This document shows positions 7,490 through 60,017 of a DNA stretch of 64,000 nt, in pieces. A model generated the notes under the pieces. The model worked only from the letters and a program-made list of their open reading frames with translations. It was not told where the DNA came from and searched no databases. The DNA lies in the NCBI RefSeq assembly GCF_003367905.1, contig NZ_CP029462.1:1612001-1676000 (forward strand), read 5' to 3'. A program made the translations under genes and the position numbers. The stretch is from Megasphaera stantonii. GTDB lineage: Bacteria; Bacillota; Negativicutes; Veillonellales; Megasphaeraceae. Each line of letters starts with the position of its first letter. Position 1 is the stretch's first letter.

Positions 7490-8941
7490 TCAGGCCTTAT
7501 TTCCATAGGTTTCTTCATACCGCTTGCGCTTGCGGACAAAGGTCGACGGCGTGATGCCCAGGGCCTTGGCGGCGGCGCGGACGTTGCCTTCCTGTTCGTA
7601 GGCCATCGTCAGGTAATGGTATTCCAGCTTTTCCAGCGTTTCGTTTAAGTCGGAAGGGAGTTCGTCCGGTACTTCGGCGGCCGTCTCCGGCGCGGCTTCT
7701 TCGGCTGCCTGTTCGGCTGGGACGACAGGGTTCGTCGGCCGGAGCAGGTGGAGGTCTTCCGGCTTGATTTCGTCGCCGGAGCTGATGATGACGGCCCGTT
7801 CGACGATGTTTTTCAGCTCGCGGATATTGCCGGGCCAGGGGTATTCGTTCAGGAGCTGAATGGAAATGTTGGAAAACCTCTTTTTAAAATTGTATTTTTG
7901 ATTGAGCTTGCCCAAAAACGACAGGGCCAGGGGGGTAATATCCTTTTTGCGGAACCGCAGGGGCGGGATGGAAATGGGAAAGACTGTGAGGCGATAGTAT
8001 AAATCCTCGCGGAATTGGTCGTTCTTCACCATGTCTTCCAAATTGCGGTTCGTCGCCGCGATGATGCGCACGTCGATTTTTATCGGCTTGGTGCCGCCGA
8101 CGCGCATGATTTCCTGCTCCTGAAGGGCTCGCAGCAGCTTGACCTGCATGTCTTTCGGCAGCTCGCCGATTTCGTCGAGAAAGAGGGTTCCCTTGTCGGC
8201 TAATTCGAACAGGCCGATTTTTCCGCCCCGGCTGGCTCCGGTAAAGGCGCCGCTTTCGTAGCCGAAGAGCTCGCTTTCGATGAGGCTGGGCGGGATGGCC
8301 CCGCAGTTTACCTGGATGAAGCTGTTTTTGGCCCGGCTGCTGTGCTGGTAGATATAGCGGGCCATGACTTCCTTGCCGACGCCTGTTTCGCCGAACAAGA
8401 TGACCGTCGTGTCCATGGGGGCGACGCGGTTGGCCAATACCATGGCTGCCAGGGCCGTTTCATCGCGGACGATGAGCTCCCGCTCCGTAAGGGGCGTCTG
8501 AATGTGTTCCAGCTCGAGGCGAAGGCGCTCGATGGCGTCGGTCTTTTCCTGTATCGATTCCTTGAGGTTGTATATTTCCGTCAGGTCGCGGACGTTGGTG
8601 ACGATCATGATGAGTTCGCCGTTTTTGTCGAAAATAGGCGAGCTGGTGACCAGGGCTTCCTTCCCCGATTTGAACCGCTGCTGCAAGGTGACGGGCCGCT
8701 TCGTGCGGGACACGATGAGAGAGCCCGACTCGGAGATGAGCTTCTGCTGCACCAAATCGGCCATATTCTTTCCTAAGATTTCGTCTTTTGTCAGGCCGGT
8801 AATTTCTTCGTACGAATGGTTGATGCGCAGGACGTTGCAGTTTTTATCGGTAATGAAAATACCGTCGAAGGAGTATTCGATAATCGCGTTCAGGTGTTCT
8901 GCCGCTTCGGCGACAGTGGAAAAAATTTCTTTCGTTCCCAT
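7490..8941 (-). CDS. Sigma-54-dependent transcriptional activator (PAS-AAA+-Fis)
   Basis: A 483-residue enhancer-binding protein. An N-terminal PAS domain (about residues 10-125) includes [22 protein letters not shown]. The central AAA+ domain (about 165-400) has Walker A GETGVGKE, the sigma-54 contact loop GAFTGA and Walker B LFLDEIGE. The C-terminal Fis-type helix-turn-helix is [22 protein letters not shown]. It should hydrolyse ATP to open RNA polymerase-sigma-54 promoters in response to a small ligand or redox state sensed by PAS. I chose the ATG at 8941 (AGAGGAGTCCT). It lies 40 bases after rpoN and is the last gene of the operon, so it is the natural candidate to drive the two -24/-12 promoters at 15.9 and 16.3 kb. 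Confidence 0.93.
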
Positions 8942-8981: not shown

Positions 8982-10250
8982 TCATGGCTGGATCTTTCGC
9001 GCGTAAGAATTGGGGATATGAAGCAGGCTGCGGTATTTTTGAACAACTCGCCGGGAAATTGCTGTATGGAATTGCGCCGACAGCATTTCTACCAGCTGGG
9101 CGTCGCTGTACGGGCGTTCCTTATCTTCTTCGCGGATCAGCTGGCAAAGGGCTTTCTTGACGGCGTCTTTGGAAAGGGACTGGCCGTCTTTCCGCAGGGG
9201 GCATTGGAATAAGGCCTTGAAGGGAAGGGTCCGGTACGGCGTCTGCACGTATTTGTCCTTGATGGCACGGCTGATCGTCGATATATGGAGTCCCGTTTTC
9301 TCCGCCATGTCCTTGAGCGTCATAGGCCGCAGGGCATGGTGAGTCTCCAGGTATTCGCGCTGCCATTCCCAAATCGCGCCGGTCAGCGCGGCGAGGGTCT
9401 GGCGCCGGCGTTCTATATTGTGGAGCAGCAGGGAGCAGCGGGCGTGCTTCTGCTGGAAATAGGTTTTGATATCCGGGTCGTCGGCCTGATGCATCATGGC
9501 GATATAGTAATCGCTCATGGAATAGGAGGCGAACCACGTGTCGTTCAGGATAATTTCATATTCCCCTTCGGTTGGCCGGATGACGACGTCGGGAACGACG
9601 TAGGCGTCTGCACTGTCAAAGAGGCCCTTCAGCGGGGCCGGGTCGAGGGCGCGGATGCGCCGGATAGTCGGCAGGACCTGCTGTTTCGGAAGGCCCAGGG
9701 CCCGGCAGACGGCGGCGATATGGTTTTTCCCGATATCTTCTAAGAACGAGTCGACGAGGGTTTCCGCTAAGGGCGTCAGCTCACCCTTTCGCCGCAGCTG
9801 CAATTTCAGGCACTCCTGCAGCGACGATGCGCCGATTCCCGGCGGATGCAGGCCCTGCAGGATGGCGACGGCCTGGGAAAACAGTCCGTCCGGTAGGGGA
9901 AAGCGCGATACATCTTGTTCCGTCACCGTCAAATAGCCTTGGTCGTCGACGCACTGGGCCAGATAATTCAGCAGAGCCCACTGGGGCTTGGTAAACTGGC
10001 TAGGATTGAGCTGCTCTATGAGGAAATTTTTGATCCTGTCCTTGTCCGGCGCGGCGACGAACTGGAGAAATTCTGCTGCGCCGCCGCGGGACGACGACGG
10101 ATGGTAATCGAGAAAGGGATTTTCTTCCGACTCCTTCTGCAGCAGGCTGCGCAGGTCTTCCGAGGACATGGACAGGATTTGCAGCGATTGGATCTGCATA
10201 GCCGACAGCTTTTGAATTTGTTCTTGCGTAAGGGTCATACGTGCGTCCAT
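8982..10250 (-). CDS. rpoN: RNA polymerase sigma-54 factor
   Basis: About 422 residues. Region I is the Gln/Leu-rich N-terminus (LTQEQIQKLSAMQIQSLQIL) that contacts activators. The core-binding domain follows, then a helix-turn-helix (MTLKDMAEKTGLHISTISRAI) and the RpoN box near the C-terminus, SRRVVQKYR, which recognises the -24 element. It directs polymerase to -24/-12 promoters, two of which are visible in this window. I prefer the start at 10250, with GAGG eight bases upstream; ATG at 10256 is an alternative. It follows the AMP-ligase gene by ten bases, so the sigma factor is made from the operon it is predicted to transcribe. Confidence 0.95.
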   Translation of the reverse strand: MDARMTLTQEQIQKLSAMQIQSLQILSMSSEDLRSLLQKESEENPFLDYHPSSSRGGAAEFLQFVAAPDKDRIKNFLIEQLNPSQFTKPQWALLNYLAQCVDDQGYLTVTEQDVSRFPLPDGLFSQAVAILQGLHPPGIGASSLQECLKLQLRRKGELTPLAETLVDSFLEDIGKNHIAAVCRALGLPKQQVLPTIRRIRALDPAPLKGLFDSADAYVVPDVVIRPTEGEYEIILNDTWFASYSMSDYYIAMMHQADDPDIKTYFQQKHARCSLLLHNIERRRQTLAALTGAIWEWQREYLETHHALRPMTLKDMAEKTGLHISTISRAIKDKYVQTPYRTLPFKALFQCPLRKDGQSLSKDAVKKALCQLIREEDKERPYSDAQLVEMLSAQFHTAISRRVVQKYRSLLHIPNSYARKIQP

Positions 10251-10260
10251 TGGCATATCC

Positions 10261-11667
10261 TCAGTCCTTTAGGCCGGGCAAGTCCGTATACTGCGTCTTG
10301 CCCGACGAGTTTTTGGGAATCGCGGCGACAGAGCGGATGGTAAAGCAGCTGGGATGAAGGCCCGCCTTGGCGACGAGGAAATCCTCCAAGTCGGAGCAGT
10401 CCGTTTCCGGAGCCGTCGTAAAGACGAGCAGGTCGTCGTCGCCGCCTGTGCAGGCGAAATCCCTGTCGGCGAAGGCGTTTTTGAACAGCTGCTCGACTTC
10501 GTCCATGTTGACCCGCTTGCCCATGATTTTGACAAACCGTTTTTTGCGGCCGGAAATATAGTAGAAGCCGTCTTCGTCGCAGTAGGCCAAGTCGCCCGTA
10601 AGCAGGCGGCCGTGCCGTTCGTCTCCTAATTGGAGGTCGTCGGCGCCATGGGCGTAGCCCAGGGATACGTTGGGGCCGTCGTAGCACAGCTCGCCGATTG
10701 CGTTGGGTTCGGTCAGCTCGGCGTGGTCGTCGTCCAAGATGCGGAAGGAGCCGCCGGGGATGGCGACGCCGATGCTGCCGATCTTGCGGAGGCAGTCTGC
10801 CGGCGGCAGGTAGGACATGCGGGCCGTCGCCTCGGTCTGGCCGTACATGACGACGAAGCGCTTTCCCGTGCCGGCAGCGTATTGGCCGAATTCCTTCTGT
10901 AATTTTTTCGACAATTTTCCGCCGGCCTGAATCATCAGCGTCAAGTCGGGAAGCTCCATTTTGGTGAATTTCAGACGGCGCAGGCATTCGTACGTAAAGG
11001 GAACGCCGGCGATGGACGTCACTCTTTTTTCCTTGCAGAACTGCCAAAAGGCCGCGTCGAAAACCGTCGCCGTCGTCAGGCATTCTGCCGCGCCGCAGAG
11101 GACGTGGCTGTTGATGACGGACAGCCCAAAGGTATAGTGCATGGGCAGGCTCGATACGGGCCTGTCGGCGGCGGTTAGTTCCAGATACTGGGCGATAGAG
11201 GCGGCGTTGGATTGGATGTTGTCGTAGCTCAGGCGGACGAGCTTCGGGCTTCCCGTACTGCCTGACGTCGTCAGCAGCAGGCCCAGGTCTTCGTATAAGG
11301 CCGGCGACGTATTATTATGGCGGTATACGTCGTAGTCATACAGCGAATAGAGGGGATTGCCGCCTTCTGTTCCGCAGGGGCAAAAGATGAATTCCGGGCG
11401 GTACGCGGCCAGGAGTCCCTGCTTCAGCTCGTCGTCCATGGCTTCGTCTATGAGCAGGGGAACGACGCGGCGTTGCAGGCAGCACAAGTAAGACAAGGCC
11501 GAACCGATGGTATTGCGGCATACGATGGCCGCCAGGGACCGGGACGGCATGATGCCTCCCAGCTCGTCGGCGTGGGCATACCAGGTTTCATATGTCGCCG
11601 CCTGTCCGCAATCGTCTTCAAAGAGCGTATGCGCCTTGAAGTTGGGATGTTTGTCAAAGAAATACAT
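10261..11667 (-). CDS. AMP-forming acyl-CoA/acyl-ACP ligase (ANL superfamily)
   Basis: A 468-residue adenylate-forming enzyme. The phosphate-binding loop LLTTSGSTGSPKLV is at about residues 131-144, VMYGQTEATARM is the A5 motif, GELCYDGPNVSLGY and LLTGDLAYCDEDGFYYISGRKKRFVK are A7-A8, and NSSGKTQY near the end contains the A10 lysine. It should activate a carboxylic acid with ATP and load it onto CoA or onto the acyl carrier protein encoded in the same operon. It starts behind GAGGAGG right after the luxC-like stop codon. The acid is unknown. Confidence 0.88.
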   Translation of the reverse strand: MYFFDKHPNFKAHTLFEDDCGQAATYETWYAHADELGGIMPSRSLAAIVCRNTIGSALSYLCCLQRRVVPLLIDEAMDDELKQGLLAAYRPEFIFCPCGTEGGNPLYSLYDYDVYRHNNTSPALYEDLGLLLTTSGSTGSPKLVRLSYDNIQSNAASIAQYLELTAADRPVSSLPMHYTFGLSVINSHVLCGAAECLTTATVFDAAFWQFCKEKRVTSIAGVPFTYECLRRLKFTKMELPDLTLMIQAGGKLSKKLQKEFGQYAAGTGKRFVVMYGQTEATARMSYLPPADCLRKIGSIGVAIPGGSFRILDDDHAELTEPNAIGELCYDGPNVSLGYAHGADDLQLGDERHGRLLTGDLAYCDEDGFYYISGRKKRFVKIMGKRVNMDEVEQLFKNAFADRDFACTGGDDDLLVFTTAPETDCSDLEDFLVAKAGLHPSCFTIRSVAAIPKNSSGKTQYTDLPGLKD

Positions 11668-11679
11668 AGGAAAGCCTCC

Positions 11680-12864
11680 TCACTCTATGACGCGGGACAG
11701 GGCTTCGAGCATGTTGTACCCGTCCCACAGGACGCTCATATCCAAGGCCTGGCCGACCGGTACGATGCGGTCGACGCCCATGGCGCCGGCTTCGACGAGG
11801 GCCTGTTTCAGCACTGCCGGATCGATGCCCAGGGTGGAGACGGTCTGGACCTTCTTGACGGCAAAGGGCAGGACTTCGTCGAGGGTTCGGATTGGGAATT
11901 GGAAGAACTGGCCGAAGGAGCCTGATAAGGCCGTAATGTCCGGCGGCAGGGACGACAGGGTGTATACGTACAGTCTGTTGGTCCGGAAGGCCGCCGACTG
12001 GAGGTGCGGCTGGGTCATGGCGAATTCCCAGGCGTCGGTGTATTTGCCGCTGGTCTTGATGGGCTGCAGGTCATAGGCTTTAGCTTCGGCAGCGACGGCG
12101 TCCCACCAGCGCCGCTGCGCCGCTTCAAAGGCCGAGCCCCTTTCGTCGAGCCAGAAGACGAAGCGCGGGCTGGAGCAGGCGTTCTGGTCGGCTTCGTACG
12201 TGTCGTTGTAGAAGCGGTGCGCCCAGGCGCGCAGCTCGTCGTCCGAACCGTTCTGAATACTGGAGCAGTCGAAGACGGCGAAGGAATATCTGTCGGCGAA
12301 GACCAATTCTACGCCTTGCGGCGGCAGGGGAAAGGTCCGTATTTCAGCGATAGACTTGTCGCCGCCCCAGACGATGCGGCCGTCGCACTGCTGAGAAAAA
12401 CGGCTTGTCAGCTCGTCGTCGCGGCCGTAGGTGACGATGGCGTTCTGCCTGCGCAAGGCGGCGAATTTGTCGTCCTGCCAAATCTTGTGAATTACATCGC
12501 ATATAGGGGCGACAGCCGGAGCCAGGCGCGGTGAGACGCGGACGATGTTGCCGTTTCCAGCCAGCAGGGAAATGCACAGGCTGTAGGCGAAGATGGTCGG
12601 CATGTTTGCCGGCGCGATGTGAAAGATGAGGCCCCGTCCAAGGCGGGCTTCCTGCTGGGAAAGATGCGGGCTCAGCTGCTTAAGGTGATTGGGCCGCAGC
12701 CAGAAGCCAAGAGTACTCCAGGCGGGTTCGGTCCGGGCTATGGGATGATGACGCAGCTCGTGCGACAGTACGGCAAGAAAATCCAGTACGACAGGGGCGA
12801 AGGGCTTCATCGGGAATGGTTTTTCCGGTATAGAGCCGGCTAAAAGCGTGTATTGATTATTCAT
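11680..12864 (-). CDS. LuxC-like acyl-CoA reductase
   Basis: A 394-residue protein of the LuxC acyl-CoA reductase family (PF05893), which reduces activated fatty acyl groups to aldehydes with NADPH via an acyl-cysteine. The family nucleophile context DQNACSSPRFVFW is present, as are the FHIAPANMPT and SLLAGNGNIVRVS nucleotide-binding segments. The start at 12864 overlaps the luxE-like stop by 8 bases; a longer opening has no ribosome site. No luciferase genes (luxAB) are present, so light production is not the role. Together with the LuxE-like protein it could release an aldehyde from a carrier-bound acyl chain (inference). Confidence 0.88.
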   Translation of the reverse strand: MNNQYTLLAGSIPEKPFPMKPFAPVVLDFLAVLSHELRHHPIARTEPAWSTLGFWLRPNHLKQLSPHLSQQEARLGRGLIFHIAPANMPTIFAYSLCISLLAGNGNIVRVSPRLAPAVAPICDVIHKIWQDDKFAALRRQNAIVTYGRDDELTSRFSQQCDGRIVWGGDKSIAEIRTFPLPPQGVELVFADRYSFAVFDCSSIQNGSDDELRAWAHRFYNDTYEADQNACSSPRFVFWLDERGSAFEAAQRRWWDAVAAEAKAYDLQPIKTSGKYTDAWEFAMTQPHLQSAAFRTNRLYVYTLSSLPPDITALSGSFGQFFQFPIRTLDEVLPFAVKKVQTVSTLGIDPAVLKQALVEAGAMGVDRIVPVGQALDMSVLWDGYNMLEALSRVIE

Positions 12865-13918
12865 GAGTATCGCTGCACCCCCTGATTTCAGCCTGCGGAA
12901 TGCGGCCGTCAATGCGGAAATACTTTCCCTTGCGGCCGCAGGGACAATCGTCAACGCCTAAGATGGCCCCCATGTCCTCCGTCAAAAGCGAATGGCCGGG
13001 ATAAGAGACGGCCATAGGAGAAAGAACCTGAAGGATTCCTGATTTTCCTATGGGACAGGGAGAGAAATCCTCCGGGTCTCTGACGATGACGTCGGAAAAA
13101 ATGCTGGCGTGGAGGTGGCCGGCTTCGCATTCCATGTATACGCAGCCCGTCTGCTCGGCCATGCCGTAGTAGTTATGGACACGGGAAATGCGGAACTGGT
13201 CGTACAGCCGCCGCTTATAAGCCTCGGCCGACACGGCCTGGGCTTCCATTTTTTTCCAGCCGCCGCCGTGGATGACGACGGCATTGGAAAAGTCGAAGGA
13301 AAGGCCTGCCTCGGCAATGGCCTGGCACAAATATTTCCAAATCATGAAGGTAAAGCCGAAAATGAGGACCGGCCCCGTGCGGGAGGCGAAGGCCTGCAAG
13401 GCTTCTTTATTTAAGGTCAAGTCGTCCATCAAGGCGTAATACTTTTTCTTAGCGAAAATAGAAAAGCCTAGGATAGCGGCTCCGCGGGCGTTGAACGCCG
13501 CCCGGTCAGTAAAGACGGACGGCGAATCGACGATGAGCATGGGCACGCGGCCTGCGCCGAGAAAATCCTTGACGATGGCGTATAAGGTGAGCTGCTGGTT
13601 TTGCGCCGTCGCCGCGTCCAGGACGATGCGGGAGCGAGCCTGGCCCGTCGTTCCCGACGACGTGATGATCTTGAAGATTTCTTCGTCAGGAATGCTCTGC
13701 AGTTTTAAGTATTTGAATAAGCGGATTGGCACCATGGGAATCTGCTCCAGCGCCGAAAACTGACTGCCGTACCCGAATACGTCGAGGGCTTGGCCGTAGG
13801 GCCGGCAATGACGGCGATGATTCTCTGTCAGCTCTTGAAAATAGGGCAGATACTGCTTTTCTTTTTCTTCCTGCGTCCAGGCGTAGGGCGCGTACGACAG
13901 CCATTGGCTATAGTCCAT
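12857..13918 (-). CDS. LuxE-like acyl-protein synthetase
   Basis: A 353-residue member of the LuxE/acyl-protein synthetase family (PF04443), a divergent branch of adenylate-forming enzymes. Motifs include FKIITSSGTTGQARSRI (phosphate loop, about 83-98), VIHGGGWKK, HNYYGMAEQTGCVYMEC, and a C-terminal CPCGRKGKYFRIDGRI. LuxE activates a fatty acid and hands it to LuxC for reduction. The two are adjacent and overlap here, as in lux-type fatty acid reductase complexes. A strong GGAGGTG precedes the start, which overlaps the end of the hydrolase gene by 11 bases. Confidence 0.87.
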   Translation of the reverse strand: MDYSQWLSYAPYAWTQEEKEKQYLPYFQELTENHRRHCRPYGQALDVFGYGSQFSALEQIPMVPIRLFKYLKLQSIPDEEIFKIITSSGTTGQARSRIVLDAATAQNQQLTLYAIVKDFLGAGRVPMLIVDSPSVFTDRAAFNARGAAILGFSIFAKKKYYALMDDLTLNKEALQAFASRTGPVLIFGFTFMIWKYLCQAIAEAGLSFDFSNAVVIHGGGWKKMEAQAVSAEAYKRRLYDQFRISRVHNYYGMAEQTGCVYMECEAGHLHASIFSDVIVRDPEDFSPCPIGKSGILQVLSPMAVSYPGHSLLTEDMGAILGVDDCPCGRKGKYFRIDGRIPQAEIRGCSDTHE

Positions 13919-14588
13919 ACTGTTTCTTCACCTCCTGGGTGAGCATGAAAGGAAGACCGTGGCCGGGATAGGTCCAAATGGGGGTCGGCAGGGAACGCAG
14001 TACGTCTTTGCCGACGGTCTGGTAGGCCTCGTCGTCGCCGCCGGGCAGGCGCGTAATGACTTCTTCGCCGGGAATGAAGTAATCGCCGGAAAACAAGAGA
14101 GCGTCGTCGGCGACGATGCAGATGCTGCCCGGCGTATGGCCTGGAGCGGCAATGCAGCGGAAGGAGTGTCCCTTCCAGACGAAATCGTAGACTGGGGCGT
14201 CGAAGACGATATCCGCTGCCTGACAGGTAAATTTCGGATACGAGACGTGCAGCTTGCCGCCGCTTTTAAAATACAGATACGATTCCATGATGCGCGTCAT
14301 GTTCATCTTCGTATTTTGGATGCCGTCGCTGCATTTTTTGCTGGCGACGACGGAGAGGGTCCAGCGGCTGCGCAGGTCGTTGAGACCGGCTATGTGGTCG
14401 CAGTGCTCGTGAGTGAGCAAAACGTATTCCGGGACGATATGGTGTTCCGCTGCATACGTGTTGATTAGGTCGGCATTGTTCGGGTCTATGAGCAACGCGC
14501 TGCTGCCGGACGTGAAGATATAGCAGTTGCTTTCCGTCAATGGATCGACCAGGCATGCCGGCTCAGGGAGTTTAAATGTCGACTCCAT
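13908..14588 (-). CDS. Metallo-beta-lactamase-fold hydrolase
   Basis: About 226 residues of an MBL-fold hydrolase. The metal site THEHCDH is at about residues 59-65, the second ligand lies in APGHTPGS, then SGDYFIPGE with the bridging Asp, and PGHG near the C-terminus. In this operon a thioesterase or glyoxalase-II-like role on carrier-bound acyl groups is plausible. I chose the ATG at 14588, which overlaps the acyl carrier protein stop by 17 bases. No ribosome site is evident, so translation is probably coupled. The annotated opening further upstream lies inside the carrier gene. Confidence 0.82.
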   Translation of the reverse strand: MESTFKLPEPACLVDPLTESNCYIFTSGSSALLIDPNNADLINTYAAEHHIVPEYVLLTHEHCDHIAGLNDLRSRWTLSVVASKKCSDGIQNTKMNMTRIMESYLYFKSGGKLHVSYPKFTCQAADIVFDAPVYDFVWKGHSFRCIAAPGHTPGSICIVADDALLFSGDYFIPGEEVITRLPGGDDEAYQTVGKDVLRSLPTPIWTYPGHGLPFMLTQEVKKQYGL

Positions 14589-14808
14589 ATTTGCGGAGGA
14601 TGTCCATGCCTTTTTCATAAGAGCTGAAAGCCAATACGTCCGGCGTATCAATGGAAATGTCGAAGGTATCTTCCATGTCTTCCATGAGCGTCATGTGGCC
14701 CATGGAGTCCCATAATTTGATGGAACGGTATTTTAAACCGGGGAGCTGGTCTTTCGTCAATTTGAAGTTGGTCATGAAGAGTTTGTCGTATTTTTCTAAG
14801 TTTGTCAT
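14572..14808 (-). CDS. Acyl carrier protein
   Basis: A 78-residue acyl carrier protein. The phosphopantetheine serine is Ser35 in WDSMGHMTLM, and the acidic helix LMEDMEDTFDI follows, as in typical carriers. It has AAAGGTG as ribosome site. It is not flanked by fatty-acid synthase genes, so it is a dedicated carrier for this operon. The ligase or LuxE-like protein could load it, and the MaoC domain, LuxC-like reductase or MBL hydrolase could act on the bound chain (inference). Confidence 0.9.
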   Translation of the reverse strand: MTNLEKYDKLFMTNFKLTKDQLPGLKYRSIKLWDSMGHMTLMEDMEDTFDISIDTPDVLAFSSYEKGMDILRKYGVDI

Positions 14809-14831: not shown

Positions 14832-15536
14832 TTAAAGAGTACAGGAAAACAATGCCTCCGGCAGCAGATAGCAGTACATGCCTTCGGCGAGAATGGTTCC
14901 GTTTTGATTCGTACAGACGCCGCGCAATGTCGCTGCGTAGCCGCGGTCGTGCGGCCCTATTTCCAGCACTGCTGCCGTCGACGTCACGGTGTCGCCGACG
15001 TACGCCGGCTTTGGAAAGCGTGCGCTGCGTTCCATGAGGATGGCGCCGTCGCCGGGAAGCTGCGTTTCCATGAGGGCTGACAGCAGGCTTTCGACGAGCG
15101 AAGGCGGGACGACGGGCCGTTTAAATCCGCATTGGGCGGCAAAGGCCGCGTCGGCGTGGAGCTTACCGTAATTTCCCGTAAGGGCGGCAAAGCCTTGTAT
15201 ATCGGCTTCGGTTATCGTCTTTTGCGCCGACGCCGTATGACCGGCGCAAAGGTGTTTTTTCTCCGGCCGTTGGTCGTCGGACTCTGCTTTCAGCGCCGCC
15301 GCCAGCTGGGTAAACTGGGCCGGCGTGCAGAGCTGCTCGAAGCGTTTGGCCGCCAGTCCCTCCGGCGACGCGCAGGCCGTCATGCAGCCGCAGACGAGGA
15401 GGCAGATATCGCAGATGGCCGTATCTACCTGGTAGGTAAATTCATGCTGGGGAAATTGTTTCTTCAGCTTTTCCACTTCTTTGGTGCGGTCGTACCGGCT
15501 GTTGCAGCCGCCGCAGTATTTTATCCCTATCTTCAT
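14832..15536 (-). CDS. Fusion of a Cys-rich CGGC-type domain and a MaoC-like hydratase domain
   Basis: A 234-residue two-domain protein. Residues 1-65 form a small cysteine-rich domain (IKYCGGCNSRYDR, then CDICLLVCGCMTACAS), similar to short proteins that bind metals or clusters. Residues about 105-230 match the MaoC/(R)-specific enoyl-CoA hydratase hot-dog fold, with ITEADIQGFAALTGNYGKLHAD carrying the catalytic Asp and His of the hydratase motif. The linker is charged and short. It would hydrate an enoyl-CoA or enoyl-ACP, and the Cys-rich domain may couple this to cluster or redox state. The start follows TAGGAG, which overlaps the stop of the NifU-like gene. Confidence 0.78.
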   Translation of the reverse strand: MKIGIKYCGGCNSRYDRTKEVEKLKKQFPQHEFTYQVDTAICDICLLVCGCMTACASPEGLAAKRFEQLCTPAQFTQLAAALKAESDDQRPEKKHLCAGHTASAQKTITEADIQGFAALTGNYGKLHADAAFAAQCGFKRPVVPPSLVESLLSALMETQLPGDGAILMERSARFPKPAYVGDTVTSTAAVLEIGPHDRGYAATLRGVCTNQNGTILAEGMYCYLLPEALFSCTL

Positions 15537-15545
15537 GGGGAACTC

Positions 15546-15839
15546 CTACAAGTGCCCGTTCTGTAAGATGGCCTTGGCCTGGGCGATTAATTCGTCGCTG
15601 ACGCCGCTGACTAAGATGACGTCTTCGATTTCAGGGATGTGTTCTTTGACCGTTGCAGAGATTAGCTCTTCTGTTGTTAATTGGGCAGAGGGGCAGCCGC
15701 TGCATTTTCCCGTCAGGCGGATGCGAAGTACCTTGTCGGTATAATCGACGACGACGACGTTTCCTTGATGTGAAGCCAACGACGGGCGGACGTAGGTGTC
15801 CAATACGCCTTCGATTTCGGCGCGAGTAGCTGTAGACAT
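15546..15839 (-). CDS. NifU-like C-terminal-domain Fe-S scaffold protein
   Basis: A 97-residue stand-alone NifU C-terminal-type domain that assembles or carries an Fe-S cluster on CSGCPSA (the CxxC pair at about residues 48-51). It lacks the N-terminal IscU-like and central domains of full NifU. I chose the ATG at 15839; an in-frame GTG three codons upstream sits on the ribosome site. It is the first gene of the leftward operon and lies 32 bases downstream of the predicted start of transcription of the -24/-12 promoter at 15881-15898. Confidence 0.87.
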   Translation of the reverse strand: MSTATRAEIEGVLDTYVRPSLASHQGNVVVVDYTDKVLRIRLTGKCSGCPSAQLTTEELISATVKEHIPEIEDVILVSGVSDELIAQAKAILQNGHL

Positions 15840-15880
15840 GGGGGTCACTCCTTTTCCTTAACTATTATATGGTAATATAT

Positions 15881-15898
15881 AAGCAATAACTATGCCAA
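15881..15898 (-). promoter_or_regulatory. Sigma-54 (-24/-12) promoter of the leftward NifU/lux-like/rpoN operon
   Basis: Read leftward the sequence is TTGGCATAGTTATTGCTT: TGGCAT at -24, five bases, TTGCT at -12, giving the required GG-N10-GC spacing. Only the last -24 base differs from TGGCAC. Transcription should start near 15871. Confidence 0.8.
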
Positions 15899-16306
15899 AT
15901 GCTGTGGGGGAAGCTCTCTGCCGGCCTGCGCGCAGGATTATCCCAGCTGAAAATGGCAAAAAATCCAAGTGAAAATGAAAAATACAAGGCGGTGAAGCGG
16001 CGTGATGCACCGTTTTTTGTCAAACTGCCGGCAATTTCTCCTGTCGCATCTCCTGTTTTGAAACAAAATTGGTTTTGATATCTATTATTGTGCCAAAAAT
16101 GACGTATTCAGAACTATTGAACCATTATTGAAACAACAACGCGATTTCTCTTGTTGCAATTTTAGCACAAAAGACAATATTTGCCTATGGTAAGAACCAA
16201 AAATGAAGCAAAAAGAGGCATGAAGATTTTTATTTTTCCCCACAATCATGGATTCATTTCCTGTTTGCAGAAAAAATTTTCTGAATTTCAGCCTAATCGC
16301 ATCAAC
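15899..16306. promoter_or_regulatory. Shared upstream region between two divergent sigma-54 promoters, candidate activator sites
   Basis: This AT-rich 408-base interval has no gene. It holds TTGAAACAA at 16128-16136 facing TTGTTGCAA at 16151-16159, an inverted pair with one mismatch and 14 bases between. Related sequences are TTTTGAAACAAAATTGG near 16056-16072 and TTGAACCATT near 16118-16127. They lie 150-250 bases upstream of the rightward promoter, the usual place for enhancer sites of a sigma-54 activator. Binding is inferred. Confidence 0.5.
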
Positions 16307-16323
16307 TTGGCACGATTGTTGCT
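16307..16323 (+). promoter_or_regulatory. Sigma-54 (-24/-12) promoter of the 4-hydroxybutyryl-CoA dehydratase gene
   Basis: TTGGCACGATTGTTGCT is a near-perfect match to the consensus TGGCACG-N4-TTGCW, with GG-N10-GC spacing. Transcription should start near 16335, leaving an 88-base leader before the ATG at 16423. Confidence 0.88.
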
Positions 16324-16422
16324 AATTATATAAGCAAGACACTGCAATGAAACGAGACCTTTGTGTGTCCGTGCAGTCTTTACTATCTCCCTATGTATTT
16401 TCCCGGAAAGGATGATTTATTT

Positions 16423-17874
16423 ATGACGTTAATGACTGGCGAACAGTATATTGAAAGCATGAGAAAACTGAATTTGCAGGTATACATGTTTGGCAAAAAA
16501 GTAGAATGTCCTGTAGACGACCCGATTCTCCGTCCGTCTCTGAATTCTGTCCGCATGACTTATGACTTGGCTCAGATGCCGGAATACCAGGATTTGATGA
16601 CCGTTATGTCTCCGTATACAGGCGAACGGGTAAACCGCTTTACGCACATTCATCAGAGCACGACTGACTTGATGAACAAAGTAAAAATGCAGCGTCTCCT
16701 CGGCCAGAAAACGGCTTCCTGCTTCCAGCGCTGCGTAGGCATGGACGCTTTCAACGCCGTATTCTCCACGACGTATGATATCGACCAGAAATACGGCACT
16801 CACTATCATGACAACTTCATGACCTTCATGAAACGGGTGCAGACGCAGGACCTTACAGTTGACGGCGCCATGACCGACCCGAAGGGCGACCGCGGCTTGG
16901 CTCCCCACGCACAGGAAGATCCCGATTTGTACCTCCACGTCGTAGAACGCCGCCCCGACGGCGTCGTCGTCCGCGGCGCAAAAGCTCATCAGACGGGCTT
17001 CATCAACTCTCATGAAGTTATCGTCATGCCGACGATTGCTATGGGCGAAGACGACAAGGACTACGCTATTTCCTTCTCCTGCCCGACCGACGCCGAAGGC
17101 ATTTTCATGATCGTCGGCCGTCAGTCCTGCGATACACGTAAGCTCGAAGGCGCCGAAATGGATACGGGCAACCCCGAATTCGGCGGCACGGAAGCTCTCG
17201 TTATCTTCGACAACGTATTCATTCCGAACGAAAACATCTACCTCAACGGCGAATATGAATTTGCCGGCGTTCTCGTCGAACGCTTCGCCGGTTACCACCG
17301 TCAGTCTTACGGCGGCTGCAAGGTCGGCGTAGGCGACGTCCTCATCGGCGCCGCGGCGTTAGCTGCCGATTACAACGGCTGCCCGAAGGCATCTCATATC
17401 AAAGATAAGCTTATCGAAATGCAGCACCTCAACGAAACGTTGTATGCCTGCGGCATCGCCTGCTCCGCATTGGGCACGAAGACCGCTTCGGGCAACTACC
17501 TCATCGATCTCCTGCTGGCAAACGTCTGCAAACAGAACGTCACCCGTTTCCCCTATGAAATCGTCCGCCTTGCCGAAGATATTGCCGGCGGCCTCATGGT
17601 AACGGCTCCGTCCGAAAAAGACCTGCGCGATCCGAAGATCGGGCCGTACGTTGAAAAATATCTCCGCGGCGTAAGCTCCGTATCGACGGAAAACCGCTTG
17701 AAAGTACTGCGCCTCATCGAAAACCTCAGCCTTGGCACGGCAGCTGTCGGCTACCGTACAGAATCCATGCACGGTGCAGGCTCGCCGCAGGCACAGCGCA
17801 TTATGATTTCCCGTCAGGGCAACTTGCGCATGAAGAAACAGCTGGCTAAAGCTATTGCGCATATTGAAGACTAA
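16423..17874 (+). CDS. abfD: 4-hydroxybutyryl-CoA dehydratase / vinylacetyl-CoA isomerase
   Basis: A 483-residue flavin and [4Fe-4S] enzyme that dehydrates 4-hydroxybutyryl-CoA to crotonyl-CoA by a ketyl-radical route, feeding butyrate formation from 4-aminobutyrate, 4-hydroxybutyrate or succinate. The N-terminus MTLMTGEQYIESMRKL matches the clostridial enzyme. The four cluster ligands are recognisable: Cys100 and Cys104 in SCFQRCVG, and the His and Cys seven residues apart in AGYHRQSYGGCKVG. I chose the ATG at 16423 rather than an upstream in-frame opening because it matches the family N-terminus and follows GGAAAGGA. A sigma-54 promoter lies upstream. No 4-hydroxybutyrate CoA-transferase is in the window. 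Confidence 0.95.
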   Translation: MTLMTGEQYIESMRKLNLQVYMFGKKVECPVDDPILRPSLNSVRMTYDLAQMPEYQDLMTVMSPYTGERVNRFTHIHQSTTDLMNKVKMQRLLGQKTASCFQRCVGMDAFNAVFSTTYDIDQKYGTHYHDNFMTFMKRVQTQDLTVDGAMTDPKGDRGLAPHAQEDPDLYLHVVERRPDGVVVRGAKAHQTGFINSHEVIVMPTIAMGEDDKDYAISFSCPTDAEGIFMIVGRQSCDTRKLEGAEMDTGNPEFGGTEALVIFDNVFIPNENIYLNGEYEFAGVLVERFAGYHRQSYGGCKVGVGDVLIGAAALAADYNGCPKASHIKDKLIEMQHLNETLYACGIACSALGTKTASGNYLIDLLLANVCKQNVTRFPYEIVRLAEDIAGGLMVTAPSEKDLRDPKIGPYVEKYLRGVSSVSTENRLKVLRLIENLSLGTAAVGYRTESMHGAGSPQAQRIMISRQGNLRMKKQLAKAIAHIED

Positions 17875-18055: not shown

Positions 18056-19144
18056 ATGGCAATTGGATTGAAAGCTCCTGGATACTACATCCAGGGCGAA
18101 GGCGAATTGGATAAGTTAGGCAAGTATGTAAAAAAATTAGGGACGACGTTTTTGGTGTTGCTGTCTCCCAACAATAAGAAGCGCATTGGCGACCGCATTG
18201 CGGCCTCACTGGAAAGCGCCGATAAAAAGGTCGTATTCAGTGAATTCGGCGGCAAGTGCACCAAGCAGGCCATTGAAGATGCGATGACGGTAGCCAAAGA
18301 CAACGGCTGCGACGTCATTGTCGGCGTCGGCGGCGGCACAGCTCTCGATACGTCGAAGGCCGTCGCTACGAATTTAGGCGGATTGCCGTCTGTCATTATT
18401 CCGACGATTGCGTCTAACGACGCGCCATGCAGCAGCGTAGCTGTCATTTATAACGATGAAGGCGTGGTCATCAAGGCCCTCATGATGCACCGCAACCCCG
18501 ACGTCGTCCTCGTCGATACGGGAATCATTGCCCAGGCTCCGAAGCATTACCTCGTTTCCGGCATGGGCGACGCCTTGTCGACGTATTTTGAAGCCCGTGC
18601 CTGCTACCGCAGCGGCGCAAAGACCATGTCCCGCGGCAAGTGCTCTATGACGGCGATGGCTTTGTCCGAATTGTGCTATAAGACGCTCCTCAAGGATTCT
18701 CTGAAAGCCTTGGAAGCTGTAGAACAGCACGTCGTCACGCCGGAACTGGAAGCCGTCGTCGAAGCCTGCGTATATTTGAGCGGCGTCGGTTTTGAAGACG
18801 GCGGCCTGGCTGCGGCGCATGCCGTCAACGACGGATTTGCCTATGTGCCTCAGGCGCACGGCATGTCTCACGGCGAAAAGGTAGCCTTCGGTTTGTTGGT
18901 ACAGCTGCAGCTGGAACAGGCTCCGCAGAAAGAATGGGATACGGTTCTGCAGTATATCAAGTCCGTTGGCTTGCCGTCGTGCTTAGCCGATATGGGCATT
19001 ACGGACGTAAAAGAAGAAGAACTTCGCCAGGTTGCCGCCGCAGCGACAGTTCCGACGCAGTTTACGAAAAACGTCCGCGCCGATATTACGGCTGACGAAG
19101 TGTACGCTGCCATTATGGCAGCCGACGCGGCTGGCCGCGCCTAA
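18056..19144 (+). CDS. Glycerol dehydrogenase-type (GldA family) NAD-dependent alcohol dehydrogenase
   Basis: A 362-residue iron/zinc-type alcohol dehydrogenase that reads as a GldA-type glycerol dehydrogenase rather than a classical 4-hydroxybutyrate dehydrogenase. The nucleotide site is GVGGGTALDTSKAVA (about 84-98), then PTIASNDAPCSS. The metal ligands are the Asp in SGMGDALSTYFEA and the His residues in AAAHAVNDG and MSHGEKVAFG. GldA enzymes oxidise glycerol to dihydroxyacetone. Next to abfD, reduction of succinic semialdehyde or of an aldehyde from the lux-like pathway is a context-based alternative. GAAAGGTGG precedes the start. Confidence 0.85.
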   Translation: MAIGLKAPGYYIQGEGELDKLGKYVKKLGTTFLVLLSPNNKKRIGDRIAASLESADKKVVFSEFGGKCTKQAIEDAMTVAKDNGCDVIVGVGGGTALDTSKAVATNLGGLPSVIIPTIASNDAPCSSVAVIYNDEGVVIKALMMHRNPDVVLVDTGIIAQAPKHYLVSGMGDALSTYFEARACYRSGAKTMSRGKCSMTAMALSELCYKTLLKDSLKALEAVEQHVVTPELEAVVEACVYLSGVGFEDGGLAAAHAVNDGFAYVPQAHGMSHGEKVAFGLLVQLQLEQAPQKEWDTVLQYIKSVGLPSCLADMGITDVKEEELRQVAAAATVPTQFTKNVRADITADEVYAAIMAADAAGRA

Positions 19145-56968: not shown

Positions 56969-58387
56969 ATGACAGCTGCTCGGCCGGTGCTGCCGCCGGC
57001 TATGATGCTGGCGGCGATGGACGCCGTAAGCGACGGCATCGTTATCGTAGACAAGGATTCCCGTATTATTTACATAAACGACGCGTATACGCGCATCCTG
57101 CGGGTAGAGCGGCAAAAGGTGCTGCACAAGCAGATCAGCGTCATCGAGCCGGGCGCCGTCATCCTGGACGCCTTGCGCGACAAGCAGCCCCGCTCGCGTC
57201 TTCCCGTAGAAGTCAAAACGAGGGGCAAGCAAATTCTGGTTAATATTACGCCGATTTTTGACGGCGGCGAAGTCATCGGGGCCGTGTCGGTCTTTGAAGA
57301 CATTACGGAGCTGTCCCTCAGCCATCAGGAGCTGGAACGGGCTCAGCGGCTGAGCCGGTCGATCTTCAAGGCCGCTGCTGACGGCTGCCATACGCTGCCG
57401 CCGGAATTTGCCCATATCGTCGGGGACAGCGCCAAGTTCCTGCGCTGCCTGCGGCTGGCGGAGCTCGTGGCGCCGACCGACGCGACTGTCCTGGTAGAAG
57501 GGGAAAGCGGCGCAGGCAAGGAAGTCGTCGTTGACGGGATTCTGCGCCTCAGCGGCAAGCGGCGGCGTCCCTTCGTCAACATAAACTGCTCGGCCATTCC
57601 GGAAAGCCTCATGGAAAGCGAGCTCTTCGGTTATACGGCCGGCTCGTTTACCGGCGCGGCCAAGGGCGGCAAGGCCGGGAAGTTTGAGCTGGCCGACGGC
57701 GGCACCATCTTCCTTGATGAAATCGGCGAAATGCCGCTGTTCATGCAGGCCAAATTGCTGCGGGCCCTGCAGTCGGGGGAAATACAGAAAATCGGCTCCG
57801 ACACGATGCAGAAGGTCGACGTCCGGGTGATTGCGGCGACGAACCGCAACCTGAAGCAGATGGTGCGGGATGGGAAGTTCCGGGAAGACTTGTACTTCCG
57901 CCTCAATACCTTTACGATCGTCATTCCGCCTCTGCGGGAGCGGGGCGAAGACGTACTGCTCCTGGCAGAGCATTTCCTGGGAAAATTTTCCAAGAAGTAT
58001 GGAAAAACAGGCCGCCTTTCGTCGGCGGTGCAGCGGTTTTTCCTGTCCTATGCCTGGCCGGGAAACGTGCGGCAGCTCGAAAGCTGCATGGAGTACGCCG
58101 TCATCGTATGCGGCGACGGCGAAATCCGGATGGAGCACCTGCCGGAAGAGCTGCAGGGCCTTTCGGATAATGGGGAAAGAACGGATGCGGCAGAAGCTTC
58201 CGCCGCAGGCGCGCCTCACGGCTTAAAGGCCGATATACAAGCTATGGAGCGGGACTACATCCTCCGCGTGCTGAAGGAGACCGGCGGCAACAAGACCAAG
58301 GCTATGGAAGTCCTGGGAATCAGCCGCCGCACCTTTTACAAGAAATGGAAGCTCTACGGACTAGATAAAGAACCGTCTATAAAGTAA
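56969..58387 (+). CDS. Sigma-54-dependent activator (PAS-AAA+-Fis) with GSFTGA loop
   Basis: A 472-residue enhancer-binding protein. The PAS domain lies at about 10-115 (MDAVSDGIVIVDKDSRIIYIND). The AAA+ domain (about 140-375) has Walker A GESGAGKE, loop GSFTGA instead of GAFTGA, and Walker B IFLDEIGE. The Fis-type helix-turn-helix is NKTKAMEVLGISRRTFYKKW. It probably controls the AtuA-like/CoA-transferase/transporter genes that follow, as local activators of this type usually do. A -24/-12-like site is seen before those genes, but it is imperfect. Confidence 0.93.
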   Translation: MTAARPVLPPAMMLAAMDAVSDGIVIVDKDSRIIYINDAYTRILRVERQKVLHKQISVIEPGAVILDALRDKQPRSRLPVEVKTRGKQILVNITPIFDGGEVIGAVSVFEDITELSLSHQELERAQRLSRSIFKAAADGCHTLPPEFAHIVGDSAKFLRCLRLAELVAPTDATVLVEGESGAGKEVVVDGILRLSGKRRRPFVNINCSAIPESLMESELFGYTAGSFTGAAKGGKAGKFELADGGTIFLDEIGEMPLFMQAKLLRALQSGEIQKIGSDTMQKVDVRVIAATNRNLKQMVRDGKFREDLYFRLNTFTIVIPPLRERGEDVLLLAEHFLGKFSKKYGKTGRLSSAVQRFFLSYAWPGNVRQLESCMEYAVIVCGDGEIRMEHLPEELQGLSDNGERTDAAEASAAGAPHGLKADIQAMERDYILRVLKETGGNKTKAMEVLGISRRTFYKKWKLYGLDKEPSIK

Positions 58388-58461
58388 ACACTATATACAT
58401 GGTAAACACGGAAAATCCTCCCAAGTATACAGTTTATACTCGTATCGCGGGAGGATTTTTT
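58384..58461 (+). terminator. Terminator with repeats after the sigma-54 activator
   Basis: AATCCTCCC (58414-58422) pairs with GGGAGGATT (58449-58457), followed by TTTTTGTG. The 26-base loop contains AGTATA-CAGTT-TATACT, itself an inverted repeat. Just upstream, GTAAACAC occurs twice, 17 bases apart (58384-58391 and 58401-58409). These could be activator sites as well. Confidence 0.7.
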
Positions 58462-58563
58462 GTGTAGAAATAAAATGCCACTCTTATAAAGTGGCGATCA
58501 GGCCGGAGTATATGCGAAAAGTGGAGAACCCTTGTAACGTTGCATAGCGAATATAGTACATAT

Positions 58564-58580
58564 TGGCATATAAATTTCAT
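58564..58580 (+). promoter_or_regulatory. Imperfect sigma-54-like promoter before the AtuA-like operon
   Basis: TGGCAT-ATAAA-TTTCAT has the -24 GG and correct spacing but TC instead of GC at -12. It lies 79 bases before the start codon. A weak candidate. Confidence 0.35.
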
Positions 58581-58658
58581 ATACATAGGCGAAGCTATTA
58601 TTGGATAGCATTACGTCGCGACAATACATGTAGTTTAAGACAGAAAGAAGGTACATCT

Positions 58659-60017
58659 ATGAAGACAATACGCATCGGCGGCGGCCAGGGCTTTTGGGGA
58701 GACCTGATTGACGCGCCGATTATCATGGCGAAGGAAGACAACGTAGATTATATTTGCTGCGATTATCTGGCGGAATTGACCCTGTCCATCATGCGGCGGC
58801 AGCAGGAAAAACGGCCCGAAGCCGGCTACGCCCGCGATTTCATCACGTCGCTGAAGGGCATGCTGCCCTACCTGGCAGAAAAGAAGACGAAGGTTATTAC
58901 CAACGCCGGCGGCATGAACGTAAAGGCCTGCGTGGAAAAGGTAAAGGAAGTCGTCAAAGCCGGCGGCTACAACCTGAAGGTCGGTTACGTCCTCGGCGAC
59001 GACGTGCGGGAAAAGATTCCCCAGCTTCGCGAGCAGGGCGTCCAGATGCAGCACATGGATACGGGCGAAGATATCGACGGCATCCTGCCGAAGATGGTCA
59101 ACGCCAACGTCTATTACGGCGTAGAGCCTATCGTCAAATGCCTGGAAGACGGCGCGGACATCATCATCCTGGGCCGCTCGACCGATACGGCTATGTTTGA
59201 AGCGCCCCTCCTGTACGAATTCGGCTGGAAGCTCGACGACTGGGACGCCAAGGCCACGGGCATTCTGGCCGGCCACCTCTGCGAATGCGGCGCCCAGGCT
59301 ACAGGCGGAAACTACGACTACGACTGGGAACACGTCCCACGTCCGGAGCTTTTAGGCTATCCCATCGTCGAAGTCAGCGAAAAGGGCAGCCTCGTTCTGA
59401 CGAAGACGAAGAACACCGGCGGCCTTGTAACGGTCCAGTCCGTCAAGGAACAGCTCATGTACGAAATCCACGACCCGTCGCAATACATTACGCCCGACGT
59501 CGTCGCCGATTTCAGCAAGATTACGCTGGAAGAAATCGAACGGGACCACGTCGCCGTCCGCGGCGTAACGGGCAAGCCTGCTCCCGACACTTTGAAGCTC
59601 TGCGTCGGATACCTCGAAGGCTACCGCAATATTGCCTACCTGCCCTACAGCTGGCCGAGAGCGCTGGATAAAGCCAAGATGGCCGCTAATATTCTGGACA
59701 AGCGCATGGCCATGAAGGGACTGAAAGCCATCCGCACCCATATCAGCTATTTAGGCGTCAACGCCCTCCACGGCCCGCTGGCTCCGGAGCTCGACGCCGA
59801 TTTGAACGAAGTCGTCCTCCGCTACGCCATCATGACGGAAACGAAGGAAGAAGGCCTGAAACTGACGCCGGAAGTCGCCGCCGTCAGCAACCTGAACGGC
59901 CCGGCCCAAGGCTGCTTCTTCGGCGGCCGTACCCGTCCCAGCGAAGTATTCGCCCTGTGGCCGACGCTCATTCCCAGAGACGCCATTACGATGGAAACGC
60001 ACGTAGAGGAGGTTTAA
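58659..60017 (+). CDS. DUF1446 / AtuA-family protein (acyclic terpene utilisation-like)
   Basis: A 452-residue DUF1446 protein, the family of AtuA from acyclic terpene utilisation. It starts MKTIRIGGGQGFWGD and contains NAGGMNVKACVEKVKEV, ILGRSTDTAMF and GATGGNYDYDWE-type segments (here CGAQATGGNYDYDW). The enzymatic activity of the family is not established; it is found in clusters for branched or terpenoid acyl-CoA breakdown. I chose the ATG at 58659 behind GAAAGAAGG. First gene of a four-gene set with a CoA transferase and a CitMHS transporter. Confidence 0.88.
   Translation: MKTIRIGGGQGFWGDLIDAPIIMAKEDNVDYICCDYLAELTLSIMRRQQEKRPEAGYARDFITSLKGMLPYLAEKKTKVITNAGGMNVKACVEKVKEVVKAGGYNLKVGYVLGDDVREKIPQLREQGVQMQHMDTGEDIDGILPKMVNANVYYGVEPIVKCLEDGADIIILGRSTDTAMFEAPLLYEFGWKLDDWDAKATGILAGHLCECGAQATGGNYDYDWEHVPRPELLGYPIVEVSEKGSLVLTKTKNTGGLVTVQSVKEQLMYEIHDPSQYITPDVVADFSKITLEEIERDHVAVRGVTGKPAPDTLKLCVGYLEGYRNIAYLPYSWPRALDKAKMAANILDKRMAMKGLKAIRTHISYLGVNALHGPLAPELDADLNEVVLRYAIMTETKEEGLKLTPEVAAVSNLNGPAQGCFFGGRTRPSEVFALWPTLIPRDAITMETHVEEV

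Follow-up and report, generated by a model that had tools for sequence, protein, structure and literature searches.

How a fermentation operon comes to encode a sigma factor and an activator of its own, and which promoters those two proteins serve, is the question raised by a divergent gene cluster in Megasphaera stantonii. The window considered here, in which all coordinates count from the first base unless stated otherwise, is a 64,000-nucleotide stretch (bases 1612001-1676000) of the 2.65 Mb single-contig genome, which is G000 in our comparisons. Its leftward operon, on the minus strand, runs from a gene for a NifU-like-domain protein (15546..15848; PF01106 and synteny) through a fusion of a Cys-rich N-terminal stretch with a MaoC-like domain (14832..15536; PF01575), a small ACP-like ORF (14572..14808), a metallo-beta-lactamase-fold hydrolase (13908..14651; PF00753), a LuxE-like acyl-protein synthetase (12857..13918; PF04443), a LuxC-like acyl reductase (11680..12954; PF05893) and an AMP-forming acyl ligase (10261..11667; PF00501) to rpoN (8982..10256) and a PAS-AAA+-Fis sigma-54 activator with a GAFTGA motif (7490..8941). 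Facing away from it on the plus strand is abfD (16423..17874), followed by an iron-type alcohol dehydrogenase (18056..19144; above the cut-off of NF006941, a glycerol dehydrogenase subfamily model) that is a candidate member of the abfD transcript. A preliminary description of the locus, in which the ACP-like ORF was absent, had the leftward operon terminate in rpoN and a PAS-AAA+-Fis activator, a reading with which the domain models agree.

The operon RpoN matches PF00309, PF04963 and PF04552 (the AID, CBD and DBD with its RpoN box) and scores 313 bits against TIGR02395, for which the cut-off is 277. The activator (we take the ATG at 8941 as its start; its longest frame would begin at 9046) combines the sigma-54 interaction domain carrying GAFTGA with a Fis-type HTH (PF00158 and PF02954) and qualifies as an enhancer-binding protein; GAFTGA is present in all 10 activators that we read, this one included. 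At 418.7 bits against a cut-off of 795 for the PrdR model NF041552, it is related to PrdR without being a member of that family. By its sequence the abfD product is 4-hydroxybutyryl-CoA dehydratase, a close relative of the solved enzyme 1u8v, its best PDB match (E 4e-242, 807 bits).

The remaining identities are broader. The LuxE-like protein passes the Pfam LuxE model but reaches 78.4 bits against the bioluminescence LuxE model NF052244, where the cut-off is 550, and the small ORF at 14572-14808 looks like an acyl carrier protein only in a loose sense, with scores below the cut-offs of both models that it matches (14.4 bits against 20.8 for PF00550; 18.3 against 32 for PF14573). Its identity is 79-91% across 8 family relatives and 51-64% across clostridial loci, and the hydrolase, whose called start is uncertain, overlaps this ORF. 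In genomes without the cluster, the Cys-rich N-terminal part of the MaoC fusion stands separate from MaoC. Between abfD and the dehydrogenase, one relative (G007, locus L024) has genes for a CoA-transferase-family protein, a 482-residue protein with a permease match below cut-off and a 204-residue protein; a second (G002, L025) has frames of equal lengths in that place, and in another locus (L165) a CoA-transferase-family gene comes after abfD. These neighbors would fit the uptake and activation of 4-hydroxybutyrate.

Both putative sigma-54 promoters of the preliminary description are found exactly where it placed them: TTGGCATAGTTATTGCTT at 15898-15881 on the minus strand, before the leftward operon, and TTGGCACGATTGTTGCT at 16307-16323 on the plus strand, before abfD, 408 bases apart and each with the GG-N10-GC arrangement of a sigma-54-dependent promoter. 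In the whole genome the pattern TTGGCAYN5TTGCW has 4 exact matches, of which 2 are this pair; one of the others lies within an open frame (L070 15570) and one at 142521. Since matches with up to one mismatch (51 genome-wide, 15 of them a single repeated sequence) barely exceed the 39 of a reversed-pattern control, only the exact matches carry weight. A further -24/-12 candidate between the two, TGGCACAATAATAGA at 16095-16081 on the minus strand, was not counted; it is without the GC and overlaps a weak activator site.

The strongest evidence for both promoters is their conservation, which the preliminary description had proposed as a check. The cluster is present, with abfD opposite, in 9 of 17 genomes of the family (in G006 on three separate contigs). 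All nine have an exact abfD-side promoter, and the nifU-side promoter has an exact GG-N10-GC in five, the other four differing by one -12 base (TTTC in three and TTAC in one, instead of TTGC). Beyond the family, a species-genome scan in which 80 LuxE loci were kept of at least 542 confirmed relatives, with neighboring genes listed from matches at E<=1e-8 covering more than 40% of the query, gave 10 loci that also have abfD, 3 of them in Megasphaera. In five of the remaining 7, these five being clostridial, sigma-54 sites flank the gap; GG-N10-GC is kept at all 10 of these sites, 8 of which are exact, the other 2 having one mismatch outside GG and GC. In the control, 1.08 Mb from 63 lux loci that lack abfD, 45 sites came within one mismatch, among them 2 exact ones. 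L169, one of the five clostridial clusters, has its abfD 5.5 kb away from the divergent pair, with a separate one-mismatch site for that gene. The clostridial locus L170 has no site, and most of its upstream region is missing, since abfD begins at base 171 of the contig. In Lacrimispora amygdalina (L209) there is no exact promoter and no site in the gaps, the two one-mismatch matches lying inside luxE and the ligase, and the genome gave no match to RpoN or to the activator. An activator orthologue is otherwise found throughout, in 9 of 9 module-bearing genomes of the family (8 at E<=1e-100, plus G016) and in 9 of 10 genomes bearing clostridial lux loci (7 of these 10 with abfD in the locus), L209 being the exception.

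If the -24/-12 matches were coincidental, one would expect them to behave like the two-mismatch matches, which in the window are no commoner than chance (55 observed, 65 expected). Instead the abfD-side site is exact in every cluster-bearing genome of the family, recurs in clostridia and, with its partner, makes up half of the exact matches in the genome, so that coincidence is very improbable as an account of these sites; for the promoter pair, we reject a chance match on its conservation in the family and in clostridia. None of four abfD copies that lie apart from the module (86-89% identical) has a -24/-12 site within one mismatch in intergenic sequence; their one match, L065 6213, was judged by eye to lie within coding sequence. 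A locus without the cluster (L064) has one site resembling the activator sites described below, 96 bases before abfD, and no -24/-12 element, and another (L067), with a 55% abfD copy, has two one-mismatch sites, each more than 2 kb away.

The space between the promoters may hold the sites through which one activator serves both. Related TTGAAACAA and TTGTTGCAA sites had been reported there, and they are present (at 16058-16066 and 16128-16136, and at 16151-16159, respectively), but the TTGAAACAA motifs are half-sites of a longer palindrome, TGTTNCA-N4-TGNAACA, which supersedes TTGAAACAA as a stand-alone site. We propose two upstream activator sites (UAS) in the window, TGAACCATTATTGAAACA at 16118..16135 and TGTTGCAATTTTAGCACA at 16152..16169, each with 2 mismatches to the palindrome, and a weaker candidate third, TGTGCCAAAAATGACGTA, at 16089..16106 (genome position 1628089), with 3 mismatches to the version of the pattern used for genome searches. 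Both proposed copies lie between the two promoters, as would be expected of a shared activator. Within 2 mismatches the palindrome occurs in all 14 gap regions (nine family, five clostridial), and the 28 sites comprise 4 that are perfect, 12 with one mismatch and 12 with two, against shuffle means of 0.0, 0.07 and 0.73 (total about 0.8), a contrast that is partly circular because the pattern was derived from the nine family regions; the fair part of the test is the five clostridial regions, which contribute 8 of the 28. With up to 3 mismatches allowed, a version of the palindrome gave 209 matches in the whole genome to 175 for the reversed control, a search too unspecific to be informative. 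Further copies of the palindrome are scattered over whole loci, some within genes.

The idea of a shared divergent sigma-54 switch that encodes its own sigma factor and activator is thus borne out by conservation and synteny, but the preliminary description missed that this rpoN is an extra copy. The genome has two rpoN genes, the one in the operon and a resident one, and the operon RpoN appears to be of a distinct, module type, being 43-62% identical to the other operon RpoNs and 28% identical to the resident RpoN. A module-type RpoN is present in eight of the 9 cluster-bearing family genomes, the exception being G005, and also in one of the other 8, G013 (78% complete), where RpoN and activator lie at a contig edge. 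Of the rest of those 8, five (G004, G008, G009, G010 and G011) have a single RpoN of the resident type, G015 has two of which neither is of the module type, and no RpoN was found in G003 (88% complete). In G012 (83% complete) the module-type RpoN is the only one found.

Seven operon RpoNs form one group in a first tree (support 100/100) and in a larger one (100/99), where an 11-row group (100/100) unites them with four clostridial RpoNs whose genomes carry a lux locus. This group stands apart from 12 resident RpoNs and from the 28 nearest RpoNs of a 398-genome phylum sample, for which loci were obtained for 30 matches from 247 matching genomes; those 28 rows and a few more clostridial ones are what represents other lineages in the tree, and the clostridial RpoNs were drawn from genomes picked for a lux locus, a sampling that favors the observed grouping. 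Both trees leave out the operon RpoNs of G006 (split) and G013 (partial), the fragmented G416 and the weak or broken L263 and L265-L267, and the larger tree also leaves out G005_hk, G008_hk, G009_hk, G015_a and G016_b. Three of the four grouped clostridial RpoNs come from genomes with abfD in the lux locus and one (L218) from a genome without it. In G415 (L174) rpoN lies downstream within the cluster itself; in the other three genomes no cluster gene was seen around rpoN, which in one case is on a 5.7 kb contig.

If the two sigma factors divide the promoters between them, the -12 element is where a difference appears. We compared the module abfD sites with sites selected for lying behind another activator gene, using a pattern in which the G position at -12 was left open. 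All nine picked sites have T there (TTTC; three of them with one mismatch elsewhere), and all nine module abfD sites have G (TTGC), a difference with a Fisher p of 4e-5 for sites that are not independent by descent and whose type is confounded with the type of activator. Three of the TTTC sites are in G000, among them TTGGCATATAAATTTC at 58563..58578 on the plus strand, which has another activator gene ahead of it and an AtuA-family gene behind it, and one each is in G004, G011, G012, G013, G014 and G015; the two site types occur together in G000, G012 and G014. In L304 the next frame, as called, begins early enough to take in the site, though it probably starts further on; in L029 the site was placed from the activator match only. 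Sites in open frames, with or without the G, were set aside (for example L071 6159, L055 2282, and L059 2273 and 3374), and in L050, L054 and L057 no site was found behind an activator.

The RpoN helix near the -12 DNA also distinguishes the two types. Before x-Ser-Arg, His-x-Ser-Thr is present in every operon row (7 of 7) and every clostridial row (9 of 9), and in the resident rows the first place is Ser (15 of 15) and the third is usually Ala (11 of 15). Residues E378 and R383 of this helix have been reported to crosslink to promoter DNA (PMC5505868), and by our own fitting of that numbering they would fall at this motif. Since the arginine does not vary between the types, and the operon RpoNs, too, have another residue in place of the glutamate, the argument from these residues is suggestive only.

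Does the operon sigma-54 matter to the promoters at all? The resident sigma-54 and the local activator could read both, which would leave the operon rpoN a redundant passenger in an ordinary regulon. G005, which matches Megasphaera hutchinsoni, gives this reading its best footing: the operon rpoN is missing there and the genome's single RpoN occupies a long branch (1.18), yet both TTGC promoters persist with GG-N10-GC, so a resident-type RpoN is probably able to serve both promoters there, and RpoN paralogues can overlap in function, as a study of such paralogues indicates (PMC7970052). A mere passenger is nevertheless at odds with the retention of rpoN in eight of the nine module genomes, with SRR and KYR of the RpoN box invariant in the 7 aligned operon RpoNs, and with a -12 base that is unlike between the two site sets; we consider an ordinary regulon unlikely.

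A second rival holds that the choice of TTTC or TTGC reflects activator type or promoter strength and not sigma-54 identity. The TTTC sites are associated with other activators, and in G002, G006 and G007 the nifU-side promoter is TTTC even though the module activator and a module-type operon RpoN are present. On the other hand, TTTC holds at every picked site across more than one pair of activator and target, with three in G000 alone, the resident RpoNs differ from the operon and clostridial ones beside DNA-contacting residues, and the four exact matches around other activators in clostridial loci, counted irrespective of whether they are intergenic, are TTGC. We hold this explanation to be doubtful but well within contention.

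The account that we favor, and think probable, is a two-way sigma-54 switch with its own activator, on a module that came in from elsewhere and carried along a sigma-54 of distinct -12 dialect. The PAS activator would sense a metabolite, perhaps succinic semialdehyde or 4-hydroxybutyrate, bind the two or three central palindromes and open both promoters. Rightward this would yield 4-hydroxybutyryl-CoA dehydratase, and leftward a NifU-like/ACP/LuxE/LuxC/AMP-ligase pathway that may activate and reduce an acid, together with the second sigma-54 and the activator; since the leftward transcript would yield more of both regulators, the switch should be self-reinforcing through positive feedback. The second sigma-54, which groups with RpoNs of clostridia that carry a like module, most likely arrived with it and may read the standard TTGC at -12, and the resident Megasphaera sigma-54 appears to use TTTC. 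If so, the resident factor could start the cascade wherever the nifU-side promoter is TTTC. A further step, possible rather than probable in our estimation, is that the module spread between lineages with a sigma-54 of its own because the resident one had drifted to TTTC, so that two dialects coexist, and that in G002, G006 and G007 they form a relay in which the resident dialect would switch on the operon, which would make the second sigma-54, which would in turn serve abfD.

If the favored account is right, Megasphaera has two natural sigma-54 factors whose promoter choices are separable, with one -12 base as the likely discriminator, an arrangement that would open sigma-54 promoter specificity to simple swaps. 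It would also illustrate how a gene cluster can supply the transcription factor that it needs when the resident factor of its new host has ceased to suit it, and would provide a regulatory handle on 4-hydroxybutyrate use in Megasphaera.

That 4-hydroxybutyrate dehydration and a lux-like pathway are controlled jointly, of which the preliminary description knew no account, had already been predicted: Table 1 of Nie et al. 2019 (PMC6615313) lists the enhancer-binding protein XanR as predicted to control abfD-nifU-hyp-ach-golB and acp-caiC-luxEC in Clostridium. The likeness is close, a sigma-54 activator over the same gene types, and the window has, at the level of sequence, the sigma-54 sites before abfD and before the acp/lux-like genes that mark that regulon. 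However, the targets given for XanR in that table include no rpoN, whereas the window operon has one; the motifs of the groups that include XanR are called "distinct", and the window site is of the TGT-N12-ACA kind; and the text on XanR makes no mention of a second sigma-54 or a -12 difference. What appears to be new is the sigma factor within the operon, not the joint control: no report of a second rpoN within such a metabolic operon in Megasphaera was found in the literature searched.

Paired sigma-54 factors have a precedent in Cereibacter (Rhodobacter) sphaeroides, where, according to two papers on its RpoN1, RpoN2 and RpoN3 (PMC11999139, PMC7277832), each of those studied has a particular activator as partner, the gene for RpoN2 is part of the fla1 locus, probably horizontally acquired, and position -11 is reportedly recognized differently by RpoN1 and RpoN2. 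Several RpoNs are common to both systems, and a pairing with activators and a promoter choice that differs near -12 would be too, but the C. sphaeroides factors serve flagellar and nif genes in a proteobacterium and the copies are described there as thought to come from duplication, whereas in the window the extra RpoN belongs to a fermentation operon and clusters with RpoNs of another lineage. As for the signal, GabR of Bacillus thuringiensis, like the window activator a PAS-AAA+-HTH sigma-54 activator but with other target genes, is reported to activate the gab cluster in response to GABA or succinic semialdehyde (PMC4279683), an analogy that suggests what the window's PAS domain might sense. 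A 2025 survey (PMC12316311), in the portion bearing on these genes, finds COG2368, which includes 4-hydroxybutyryl-CoA dehydratase, to be sigma-54-regulated mainly in Clostridia and puts organisms with more than one rpoN at about 5%.

Scans of the window for other signals were of little yield, with 14 sigma-70 promoter-like sequences, with 7.6 expected, and 15 terminator-like ones, with 15.0 expected; one perfect sigma-70-like promoter lies just after the activator gene, at 7482-7454 on the minus strand.

Separate from the abfD-lux module, the window carries what is apparently a small, complete sigma-54 unit (56969-60017), in which a PAS sigma-54 activator is followed by a sigma-54 site with a TTTC-type -12 element (58563-58578) and then by an AtuA-family gene. 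Six genomes of the family (loci L071 and L304-L308) encode an AbfD paralogue, sharing 37-39% identity with AbfD, that is preceded by a TTTC-type site and the gene for a sigma-54 activator; in the window's own genome this arrangement lies at L071 position 7021, corresponding to genome position 615004 or thereabouts. The genome-wide search for the sigma-54 pattern also returned 15 copies of TTGGTATTTTCGTTGCT across the genome (e.g., at 579700, 772386, and 2088608), which probably sit within a multicopy mobile element.

At 3 loci (L063, L065, and L066), abfD adjoins MaoC and the lux module is missing, with genes for a nifU-like protein, a Cys-rich protein, and a dehydrogenase likewise near abfD in L065 and L066. 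Scanning these 3 loci for sigma-54 sites revealed no intergenic one. MaoC and the Cys-rich stretch are 2 separate proteins there, whereas in the window they form a single fusion.

Megasphaera hutchinsoni (G005, locus L027) lacks rpoN in the interval between the AMP ligase and activator genes, and its sole remaining RpoN sits on a very long branch of the RpoN tree. In the Lachnospiraceae genome G417, the module-type rpoN (L303, 9763-10858) contains an internal stop and, judged from its sequence, looks broken; this genome also encodes a second RpoN belonging to a different group. Two sister-genus genomes, G015 and G016 (loci L076 and L087), have an additional RpoN type, distinct from the others in the same tree.
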